64,000 bases of DNA from Verrucomicrobiales bacterium (GTDB taxonomy: Bacteria; Verrucomicrobiota; Verrucomicrobiia; Limisphaerales; CANJXF01): NCBI GenBank assembly GCA_947478865.1, contig CANJXF010000020.1, forward strand, positions 1 to 64,000. Direction: 5' to 3'. The notes beneath the pieces are model-generated. The model was not told the DNA's origin. It did not search any database and worked only from the letters and a program-made list of their open reading frames with translations. Below are positions 44,888 to 48,393 of the stretch, one piece after another (the stretch's first letter is position 1; each line of letters starts with the position of its first letter). The position numbers were made by a program, and so were the translations under genes.

Positions 44888-46222
44888 TTGTCGCGCGAGG
44901 CCACGGTTGCTGCGCCTGGTTTTACCCGCTGGCTCGTGCCGCCCTCCGCCATCGCGGTGCACATCTGCATTGGGGATGTTTACGGATTCAACGTTTTTAA
45001 CGAACCGCTCACGCGCCTGGTTGGCGTTAGCAGATCCATCGCCGGCGAGGATTGGACCATTCCTCAGGTGGGTTGGATTTATTCAATTGCTCTCATGATG
45101 CTTGGGCTTTCCGCGGCGCTCTTCGGAAAATGGGTGGAGCGGAGCGGGCCGCGCAAAACGATGCTGGTCAGCCTGGTCTGTTTTTGCGGAGGACTGGTGC
45201 TGTCGGCAATTGGCGTGAAACTGCATCAATTGTGGCTGCTTTATCTGGGTTACGGGGTTCTCGGCGGAATCGGCTTGGGCTTGGGTTATATCGCGCCGGT
45301 ATCCACTTTGATTAAATGGTTTCCAGACCGTTCCGGCATGGCGACGGGAATGGCGATTATGGGATTTGGCGGCGGGGCGTTGATCGGCGCACCGTTGGGA
45401 GTGGAATTGATGGCCCGGTTCAAGACCGCGACCTCTTTGGGAATCGCAGAGGCTTTCCTGACGATGGCTGGCCTCTATGCGTTGTGGATGCTTTTTGGCG
45501 CCTTGACGATACGAGTGCCCGCACCGGAATGGCAACCGGCGGGATGGAGTCCGAAGCCCAACGCGCCCGGCCGGGCACCGCAGGACAGCGTGCCAGTGGA
45601 CAAAGCATGGAGAACGCGGCAATTCTGGTTCCTCTGGGTCGTTCTTTGCATGAACGTGAGCGCTGGCATTGGGGTGCTGGGTCAAGCCTCGCTGATGTGC
45701 CAGGATATGTTTGGAGTCAGTGCCGCGGTGGGCGGAGGTTTTGCCGGACTCTTGTCGATCTTCAATCTGGGTGGCCGGTTCATCTGGTCCTCCATTTCGG
45801 ATCTAACCGGACGAAAAGCGGTTTACTGCATTTATTTTCTTCTGGGAGCCGTGCTATACGCCGTGATCCCGCTAACCCAAAAAATCGGCAGCCAATTTCT
45901 GTTTGTGACGGTGACCGCCATAATTATCTCCATGTATGGCGGCGGCTTTTCAACGGTGCCTGCTTATTTGAAGGATTTGTTTGGGACAGCCGAAGTCGGT
46001 GCGATTCACGGGCGGTTGATCACGTCCTGGTCTTTGGCGGCCATCGTTGGTCCGATGCTGATCAACTACATCTCGACTGCCAAAAAAGCGGCAGGGGTTC
46101 CGAAAGAGCAGGCTTACAATGCAACGCTTTATCTGATGGTTGGCCTATTGCTGGTCGGATTTATCAGCAATCTTTGCATTCGCCCGCTCAGTGCAAAGCA
46201 AACCGCAAAGCACACTGTATGA
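44888..46222 (+). CDS. MFS transporter, OFA (oxalate/formate antiporter) family
   Basis: 444 residues from TTG 44888, the only reasonable start. Twelve membrane helices with OFA-type features: IHICIGDVYGFNVFNEPLTR in helix 1, GVLGGIGLGLGYIAPVSTLI and KWFPDRSGMATGMAIMGFGG in the first half, and GRFIWSSISDLTGRKAVY between helices. The family exchanges small organic anions such as oxalate and formate. The exact substrate is unknown. The stop overlaps the start of the small-subunit gene as ATGA. Confidence 0.9.
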   Translation: MSREATVAAPGFTRWLVPPSAIAVHICIGDVYGFNVFNEPLTRLVGVSRSIAGEDWTIPQVGWIYSIALMMLGLSAALFGKWVERSGPRKTMLVSLVCFCGGLVLSAIGVKLHQLWLLYLGYGVLGGIGLGLGYIAPVSTLIKWFPDRSGMATGMAIMGFGGGALIGAPLGVELMARFKTATSLGIAEAFLTMAGLYALWMLFGALTIRVPAPEWQPAGWSPKPNAPGRAPQDSVPVDKAWRTRQFWFLWVVLCMNVSAGIGVLGQASLMCQDMFGVSAAVGGGFAGLLSIFNLGGRFIWSSISDLTGRKAVYCIYFLLGAVLYAVIPLTQKIGSQFLFVTVTAIIISMYGGGFSTVPAYLKDLFGTAEVGAIHGRLITSWSLAAIVGPMLINYISTAKKAAGVPKEQAYNATLYLMVGLLLVGFISNLCIRPLSAKQTAKHTV

Positions 46223-46401
46223 AAGCGCTCCGAATCATCATCGCTTGGTTGCTCGTGGGCCTTCCGCTGGCGTGGGGCGTTTCCCGGTCGGTCCTAAAAT
46301 CAATGCCGTTGTTCAGCTCAAAAACCCTCGATGCTCGTTCCGTATCAACGAGCAGAGATACAATTCAAAATTCCGAAAAAACCAATCCAACTAAACCATG
46401 A
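46219..46401 (+). CDS. MFS transporter small subunit (60 residues)
   Basis: Short membrane protein starting MKALRIIIAWLLVGLPLAWG and followed by a polar, Ser/Thr-rich tail. One membrane helix (about 5-21). A small protein with this AWLLVGLPLAWGV pattern is encoded directly after OFA-type transporters in many bacteria and is thought to be a partner subunit. It overlaps the MFS stop by four bases and the PQQ dehydrogenase start by four bases (ATGA at 46398). Its translated C-terminus is longer than the core pattern needs. Confidence 0.82.
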   Translation: MKALRIIIAWLLVGLPLAWGVSRSVLKSMPLFSSKTLDARSVSTSRDTIQNSEKTNPTKP

Positions 46402-47747
46402 AAAAACTAATCCAACTCATGCTTGCAGCGGCCACCACGATCACCGTGGGCGCGGCCACCCACAATACCGCCACGTCTGGCGGCAAATTGCCCAAGCCCG
46501 TCACCGTCGCTTTGGTCAAAGTGGCCGATGGCTTTGTCGATCCAGTGCGCGTGACTGCGTCGCCGGACGGCACGGGGCGTCTTTTCGTTTGCGAGCGGAG
46601 CGGCGTGGTTCGGATCATCAAGGACGGCAAAGTGCAGGAAAAGCCGTTCCTGGACATCCACGAAACGGTCGTCAGCTCCTTTGTGGAGCAAGGTCTTTAC
46701 GACCTTGAGTTTCATCCCAAGTTTAAGGAAAACGGCAAGTTCTATGTTCACTACTCGGATATGTGGTTCAACGGGGCTGGCTTCATCGTCGAATACAAAG
46801 TTTCCGCCCGCAGCCCGGACCGCGCCGATCCGGAAAGCGCCCGGGTCGTCATCCAGTTGCCCCGTCCTTTCGCGAATCATAACGGTGGAGAAATTGCCTT
46901 TGGCCCAGACGGTTATCTTTACATTGGCAGCGGCGACGGAGGCTGGGAAGGCGACGTGCTGGGTGCCGGACAGGACCTCACCACGTGGCTGGGAAAAATT
47001 CTGCGAATCGACGTCAATGCCTCGAGCCCAGATCGGGGCTACAACATTCCCAAGGACAATCCGTTTGTGACGCCAGGGCAGCAGATGAAACTTTTCGGAG
47101 TCAGCGAGATAGCGTTCAGCAAGCTTCATCCTAATGCGAAGCCGGAAATTTGGTCCTACGGTTTGCGCAATCCGTGGAGCTTTTCCTTTGATCGCAAAAC
47201 CGGCGATATGTACATCGCGGACATTGGCCAGAACCATTACGAGGAGATCAATTTTGAGCCAGCCAGGACGGCCGGCGTAAATTATGGATGGAAGTTCATG
47301 TGCGGCACCCATCCATTCCCATTGCCGACCGATGAGCAGGGCCGACCTGACCATGCGGCCGTGAAAGATGCGCCGCGCGTGGGTGAATTACCGATCGCCG
47401 AATATAGCCACGTGGACCAAGGCAACTGCGTGATGGGCTTCGGTGTTTATCGCGGCAGCAAATATCCCCAGATGGAGGGCACCTACTTCTTTGGCGATTG
47501 GGGCTCGGGCAAAGTTTGGGGAACAGCGCGCGACGCGAAAGGCAATTGGCAAATGGAAGAGCTGCTCAATACTAAACTCATGTTCACTGGCGCAGGCGAA
47601 GCAGAGGATGGAACCATTTATGTCACCAATGCCCATGCGAATTACGGTGGTCCCGTGGATCCAGCGAAAAATGAGCGCGGGGCAGTTTGGATGCTGGTTC
47701 CGCGCGACAAGGTGCCCAAAGGAGCCGAAACGGCCCCGCTCGAATAA
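46398..47747 (+). CDS. PQQ-dependent sugar dehydrogenase (GSDH-like)
   Basis: 449 residues with a signal peptide (MKKLIQLMLAAATTITVGAA). The soluble glucose dehydrogenase/sorbosone dehydrogenase propeller is evident: VRVTASPDGTGRLFVCERSG, GLYDLEFHPKFKENGKFYVH, NHNGGEIAFGPDGYLYIGSG, IWSYGLRNPWSFSFD, GVNYGWKFMCGT. Members oxidise sugars or aldoses in the periplasm and pass electrons to a carrier. Downstream a blue copper protein is encoded, a plausible carrier. PQQ biosynthesis genes are not in the window, and some family members use no PQQ. Confidence 0.88.
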   Translation: MKKLIQLMLAAATTITVGAATHNTATSGGKLPKPVTVALVKVADGFVDPVRVTASPDGTGRLFVCERSGVVRIIKDGKVQEKPFLDIHETVVSSFVEQGLYDLEFHPKFKENGKFYVHYSDMWFNGAGFIVEYKVSARSPDRADPESARVVIQLPRPFANHNGGEIAFGPDGYLYIGSGDGGWEGDVLGAGQDLTTWLGKILRIDVNASSPDRGYNIPKDNPFVTPGQQMKLFGVSEIAFSKLHPNAKPEIWSYGLRNPWSFSFDRKTGDMYIADIGQNHYEEINFEPARTAGVNYGWKFMCGTHPFPLPTDEQGRPDHAAVKDAPRVGELPIAEYSHVDQGNCVMGFGVYRGSKYPQMEGTYFFGDWGSGKVWGTARDAKGNWQMEELLNTKLMFTGAGEAEDGTIYVTNAHANYGGPVDPAKNERGAVWMLVPRDKVPKGAETAPLE

Positions 47748-47793: not shown

Positions 47794-48393
47794 ATGTTGC
47801 ACCATCGCTTTGCCGTCCTCTTACCTTTAGTCGGCGTTTTTTCGCTGTCAGTGGCTCTGGCTGAGGACACGTCTGCGATTCCCGATGGGAGCGCTGCGCA
47901 CGAGCACGCGATTCCGGCCAAACTACCTCCCCTTAAACCGGAGGATTGCATCAAGTTGGATTCATCCGCACCCAGAACCGTTCTCCTGAATGTGATGGCG
48001 GCTTATGGCGATGTGAACTACGGGATGAACTTCAACGGATTTGCGAAAGGCAACGCCCGTTACGTGATTCCAAAAGATTGGACGGTTAAAATTACGTTTC
48101 TGAACAGAAGCCCTGTGCCCCACAGCGCAATTGTTGTGGAGCGTCCCACGTTAAAAAAGCTGCAGATGGGTGACCCTTACTTCAAAGGGGCGAGCACCCC
48201 GAACCCAGTGCAAGGAACCACGGGACCGGCGGTGACGTTTCAATTTGTTCCGAATGAGGCGGGTGACTTCGCCCTGGCTTGCGGATTTCCGTCCCACGCT
48301 TTGGGCGGTCATTGGATCGAATTTGAGGTTAGTGAAACAGCCACCGCTCCCAGTTGGACAGCGGGGAAGGCTGAGCCTTACACCGCGAAATGA
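47794..48393 (+). CDS. Sulfocyanin-like blue copper protein (cupredoxin)
   Basis: 199 residues, signal peptide about 1-23 (ends SVALA). A sulfocyanin-like cupredoxin domain spans about 60-180. Probable copper ligands are His110 (VPHSAIVV), Cys163, His168 and the residue five after it (CGFPSHALGGHW). In sulfocyanins I recall, the last position is Met in a CG-PGHA--GMW motif; here it is His173. It would be a periplasmic electron carrier. It follows the PQQ-type dehydrogenase by 46 bases, so an acceptor role is likely by context. Confidence 0.85.
   Translation: MLHHRFAVLLPLVGVFSLSVALAEDTSAIPDGSAAHEHAIPAKLPPLKPEDCIKLDSSAPRTVLLNVMAAYGDVNYGMNFNGFAKGNARYVIPKDWTVKITFLNRSPVPHSAIVVERPTLKKLQMGDPYFKGASTPNPVQGTTGPAVTFQFVPNEAGDFALACGFPSHALGGHWIEFEVSETATAPSWTAGKAEPYTAK

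Follow-up and report, generated by a model that had tools for sequence, protein, structure and literature searches.

Predicted axial histidine throughout a Verrucomicrobiota family of sulfocyanin-type cupredoxins, and association of the family with a glucose/sorbosone dehydrogenase-fold gene

A cupredoxin gene in the window, the 64,000-nucleotide stretch of contig CANJXF010000020.1 of a Verrucomicrobiales bacterium analysed here, belongs, as judged from sequence, to a natural, family-wide variant of the sulfocyanin type in which histidine occupies the place of the axial methionine, and a gene for a protein of the glucose/sorbosone dehydrogenase (GSDH) fold is strongly associated with it. We favour, with moderate confidence, the reading that the product is a natural His3Cys cupredoxin which would take up single electrons from the GSDH-fold dehydrogenase in the periplasm and conduct them towards a haem-copper oxidase.

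Results

The translation of the window open reading frame at 47794..48393 on the forward strand includes ...LACGFPSHALGGHWIEFEV... and begins with a stretch which, by inspection, resembles a Sec signal peptide. The Pfam model PF06525 (SoxE) matches the protein with 57.4 bits, above its gathering cut-off of 21, and the sulfocyanin equivalog TIGR03094 with 49.9 bits, below its cut-off of 168.4, so that by these profiles the protein is a member of the sulfocyanin domain family, yet no sulfocyanin proper. The features of the gene and its neighbourhood are as follows.

44888..46222, + strand: MFS carrier of the oxalate/formate - lactate type; precedes the GSDH gene, with which it often shares a gene run
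46398..47747, + strand: GSDH-fold protein (glucose/sorbosone dehydrogenase; PF07995, E 2.2e-38), 46 bp upstream of the cupredoxin gene, predicted electron donor
47794..48393, + strand: sulfocyanin-type cupredoxin gene, 199 amino acids, ATG start (open reading frame and PF06525 match)
47899..47907, + strand: H36-x-H38, a short His motif that follows the signal peptide (88/101 rows have H36, 54/101 have H38)
48025..48027, + strand: M78, invariant (100/100), in the motif MNFNG; archaeal sulfocyanin, with FNFNG, has Phe here
48121..48123, + strand: H110, predicted first equatorial His ligand (100/100; sulfocyanin and rusticyanin alignments)
48280..48282, + strand: C163, predicted Cys ligand (101/101)
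48295..48297, + strand: H168, predicted second equatorial His ligand (101/101)
48310..48312, + strand: H173, axial-ligand position, replaces Met (101/101; sulfocyanin and rusticyanin alignments)

The ligand loop of the window protein reads C163-GFPS-H168-ALGG-H173-W, and an earlier sequence-only reading, which had drawn attention to the motif C163/H168/H173, described the reading frame and numbered the residues correctly. For sulfocyanin Q53765, PMC517927 gives the ligands H110, C171, H176 and M181, the signature [C]-[G]-[I]-[AL]-[G]-[H]-[A]-[VAQ]-[SA]-[G]-[M]-[W] and the second signature FNFNGTS; the comparison motif with axial Met of the earlier reading agrees with that first signature. The spacing of the window protein matches it at each column, with Met exchanged for His at the axial place, where H173 corresponds to M181. 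When a profile built from 46 homologues is aligned to PDB chains, the H173 column coincides with Met148 of rusticyanin (1a8z) and with the Gln of 1e30, the Met148Gln rusticyanin mutant. Alignment to both families, which had been proposed as a check, therefore sets H173 on M181 and on M148, and the claim of a blue-copper, sulfocyanin-type fold with His at the axial-Met place is borne out column by column, the histidine being invariant in the family.

Homologues were collected from the order set with the query P0001 at an E-value of at most 1e-8 (38 of 320 genomes with 39 places, one of them a C-terminal fragment) and by searches with the family alignment in the families f69 (47/68 genomes) and f64 (15/195 genomes). 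Position 173 is His at all 101 places in 100 Verrucomicrobiota genomes (39 order, 47 f69 and 15 f64 places), and H173 is thus neither chance nor a sequencing error. C163, H168 and G172 are equally present at all 101 places and H110 and M78 in every row except that of the C-terminal fragment, which has neither; position 174 is W in 95 and R in 6, and positions 167 and 169-171 are variable. For the 43 distinct sequences collected first, pairwise identity over the domain goes down to 42%, and 16 clusters form at 70% identity. The six homologues with Arg for W174 (L174-L179), which retain the His at 173, all belong to f64; close to their N-terminus, a CC pair stands at the site of the His motif that most other homologues possess.

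A contrast set of 19 other places in the same phylum that are weakly matched by PF06525 comprises 18 with a cupredoxin loop, all with Met, and one with no motif. A Met-type cupredoxin domain, CTFPGHWRRM, is also encoded on contig 9 of the own genome.

Outside the phylum, a tblastn search against plasmids retrieved 11 records, from Sinorhizobium (7), Phyllobacterium (2), Microvirga (1) and Deinococcus (1). Four of the five plasmid homologues examined are rhizobial (Rhizobiales), with the loop CARQTHLMDGHW and axial His, and the fifth, from Deinococcus, has the loop CGVPGHGMGGQY with axial Gln; at the place of M78 the rhizobial homologues have the Met-free motif IIDFNG and the Deinococcus homologue has LNFNG. 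With His in the rhizobial and Gln in the Deinococcus proteins, the residues found at the predicted axial column across the wider sulfocyanin-like family are Met, Gln and His. GSDH is not among the annotated neighbours of the plasmid homologues in the two annotated records, and a scan of viral contigs with the family alignment found no relatives.

The AlphaFold model of the window cupredoxin, computed with five sequences as input, has a mean pLDDT of 61.5, with residues 71-86 below 50. Foldseek, run with this weak model, lists rusticyanin and other cupredoxins as top matches (best E 8.7e-05), and the highest VIA-align Z is 8.7, for a CuA domain, which speaks for the general cupredoxin fold only; the modelled protein would accordingly adopt a cupredoxin beta sandwich.

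The GSDH gene lies directly upstream of the cupredoxin gene, on the same strand, at 38/39 places of the order, 14/15 of f64 and 11/47 of f69; at the 39th order place the cupredoxin gene starts 5 bp from the contig end, so that the upstream region is cut off. With GSDH presence called at an E-value of at most 1e-100 in the order and at most 1e-90 in f69, 38 genomes of the order have both genes, none the cupredoxin only, four GSDH only (G085, G093, G258, G277) and 278 neither, and in f69, with the genes mostly unlinked, 42 have both, five the cupredoxin only, four GSDH only and 17 neither. Three of the five f69 genomes with the cupredoxin only have a completeness of 68, 74 and 76%. The corresponding Fisher values of 3.7e-45 (order) and 2.3e-08 (f69) are overstated, as the genomes are related and shared ancestry is ignored. 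Because GSDH and cupredoxin genes are mostly apart in f69, their co-occurrence there is more than the co-inheritance of one block; around the unlinked cupredoxin genes of f69, no conserved neighbour appeared other than the cupredoxin gene and frames that overlap it. The family-wide conservation of the histidine and the linked dehydrogenase gene had both been overlooked by the earlier reader.

In 25 of the 40 stretches with both cupredoxin and GSDH, the MFS carrier is encoded directly upstream on the same strand. Its best NCBIfam match is the L-lactate MFS transporter (318.1, with a cut-off of 320), and the arrangement suggests a three-gene set of MFS carrier, GSDH-fold protein and cupredoxin with an organic-acid or sugar-acid substrate. 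In G093 (L108 5269-5997) the gene after GSDH encodes, in place of an axial-His cupredoxin, an exported protein that has the motif CFMHPWM and a CarboxypepD_reg-like tail and may be another cupredoxin-like carrier; this genome is also among the few of the order with PqqC. Four of five scanned proteins of the phylum have DUF7133, a large protein type which we take to be a dehydrogenase-type beta-propeller, fused to a cupredoxin (Copper-bind) domain. The own genome has four COX1-family matches.

Discussion

Copper in this exported, single-domain SoxE-type cupredoxin would be held by H110, C163, H168 and, axially, H173, hence by a His3Cys set instead of His2CysMet. The predicted axial His draws support from the finding that the only other residue of homologues in the 173 column is Gln, which is also a known axial ligand. 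With H173 as a putative copper ligand, the site is likely to be a perturbed one, resembling type 1.5 or type 2, and the protein greenish or reddish as opposed to plain blue; azurin Met121His, by the title of a reference listed in PMC4059628, represents such a type-1.5 site. The statement of the sequence-only reading that an axial His would lower the potential, on the other hand, is unsupported in this form. In PMC6487685, the potential of the Thermus laccase is 371 mV for M460H, 357 mV for the wild type and 258 mV for M460Q, and the efficiency of M460H is 400-fold lower. As the M460H exchange barely shifted the potential (PMC6487685), a lower potential would, by analogy, not be a safe prediction for the window protein.

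The axial assignment has a competitor in M78. H173 could be a conserved residue outside the coordination sphere, the site being three-coordinate or having M78 as axial ligand, and perhaps an ordinary or high-potential blue site; M78 is invariant (100/100) in place of the Phe of archaeal FNFNG, and in the profile alignment the MNFNG motif comes to lie near rusticyanin residue 54, in a region presumably close to the copper. The rhizobial homologues, however, have His at 173 while lacking Met at 78, in the Deinococcus homologue position 173 is Gln and position 78 Leu, and H173 is retained where its neighbour W174 has become Arg (6/101), which makes this explanation unlikely. A Met ligand elsewhere in the site had been named beforehand as an observation that would overturn the axial His: a suitable invariant residue does exist in M78, but it is dispensable for the axial His, as rhizobial homologues do without it. 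Less probable still is a role as copper buffer or tolerance protein in the manner of CopI, in which the N-terminal His motif would catch copper and the His3Cys site store or oxidise it. CopI, a green cupredoxin of copper tolerance, is likewise exported with an N-terminal His motif, and H36, present after the signal peptide in 88/101, is comparable to its His-rich stretch (PMC13308877); the conserved motif would also suit a copper-handling role, and an axial His should bind Cu(II) more firmly. CopI nevertheless has a His-Cys-His-Met site, in which Met is axial, as well as an internal segment rich in His and Met (PMC13308877), whereas the window family has axial His and no such segment was seen in the window protein; moreover, the genes linked to the cupredoxin code for the GSDH-fold protein and the MFS carrier, and no known copper genes are among them.

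In the reading we prefer, that of a His3Cys electron acceptor, the GSDH-fold dehydrogenase encoded upstream would hand one electron to the cupredoxin in the periplasm, and the cupredoxin would then pass electrons towards a haem-copper oxidase. The possible second carrier encoded after GSDH in G093, the fusions of cupredoxin domains to DUF7133 and the COX1-family matches of the own genome speak for this reading. Both the choice of the GSDH protein as partner and the direction of electron flow are inferred from gene association, a donor function of this protein being plausible. As a counterpoint to the pairing, the two genes are not adjacent at 36/47 f69 places. It is also conceivable, if rather doubtful, that the linkage reflects descent alone and that the proteins do not cooperate: all genomes seen with the pair belong to one phylum, and the two genes are separated at most f69 places. 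Against this stands that the f69 co-occurrence holds despite the mostly unlinked genes (42/5/4/17), with three of the five cupredoxin-only genomes incomplete. Iron oxidation, the usual role of sulfocyanin, was set aside, as no iron-oxidation gene was seen among the genes neighbouring the cupredoxin.

The likely cofactor of the GSDH-fold protein calls for caution about its donor role. The protein's closest solved relatives are Hedgehog-interacting proteins (132.7 bits), followed by 3a9g, 2ism and 2g8s; the Hedgehog-interacting protein is a signalling protein and no enzyme. PqqC was detected in 7/320 genomes of the order and in 0/38 of those with the cupredoxin, the own genome being among the negatives. 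Because PqqC is absent from the 38 cupredoxin-bearing genomes of the order, the protein either uses imported PQQ or is an enzyme that does not depend on PQQ; some bacteria do take up PQQ. Going further than the acceptor role as such, we put forward tentatively, and with clearly less confidence, that a clade-fixed natural His3Cys cupredoxin serves as the dedicated acceptor of a GSDH-fold dehydrogenase in organisms without PQQ synthesis of their own, and that axial Met, Gln and His represent a series in which a single scaffold is tuned by nature.

Among known proteins, sulfocyanin (SoxE, PF06525; TIGR03094) shares with the window family the Pfam fold family, the H-C-H ligands, the C-x4-H-x4-axial spacing, the CG-x-x-x-H-x-x-x-G-x-W loop and the FNG motif; sulfocyanin, however, has axial Met and FNFNG, whereas the window family has axial His and MNFNG, is bacterial and is encoded beside a GSDH gene. 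Rusticyanin (1a8z, 1e30), which heads the Foldseek list and is detectable by profile, has the same C-x4-H-x4 spacing and differs in that the natural protein has axial Met148 where the window protein has H173. The axial His is shared with engineered azurin M121H (reference list of PMC4059628) and laccase M460H (PMC6487685), which are laboratory mutants, unlike the natural and fixed histidine of the window family. Nitrosocyanin (red copper), a further natural departure from His2CysMet, is His2CysGlu (PMC9241007); the window family in contrast conserves H110, H168 and H173, a predicted His3Cys set, and the match to nitrosocyanin (1iby) is not significant (E 0.54).

A literature search limited to open-licence papers found no description of a natural axial-His cupredoxin, and within these papers the His3Cys set was otherwise met solely in engineered axial-His mutants. 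Descriptions of sulfocyanin, or of cupredoxin together with PQQ, in Verrucomicrobiota were likewise not found among open-licence papers; two Gemmatimonadota MAGs are reported to have sulfocyanin genes (PMC10367259). The axial ligand is a classic handle for the tuning of cupredoxins and has been studied mainly through mutants. A natural family with invariant His would make it possible to follow how an axial His affects colour, potential and electron-transfer rate in a scaffold adapted to it by evolution, with the Met-type cupredoxins of the same genomes and the Gln-type homologue elsewhere as natural comparison. The linked GSDH provides a concrete candidate partner, which may explain how these Verrucomicrobiota respire electrons from a widespread uncharacterised dehydrogenase.

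The sulfocyanin-like proteins on plasmids of Sinorhizobium, Microvirga and Phyllobacterium belong by tblastn to the same family, with axial His in the four examined, and differ from the window protein by the CARQTHLMDGHW loop and by the lack of an annotated GSDH neighbour in two annotated records. On pSymA of Sinorhizobium meliloti 1021 (L066, about record 1068558-1069148), the axial-His sulfocyanin-like gene has no feature in the plasmid table. On the plasmid of Deinococcus sp. NW-56 (L062 4923-5402), the axial-Gln sulfocyanin-like gene adjoins an annotated nirK, and its product is a possible candidate for a donor to nitrite reductase.
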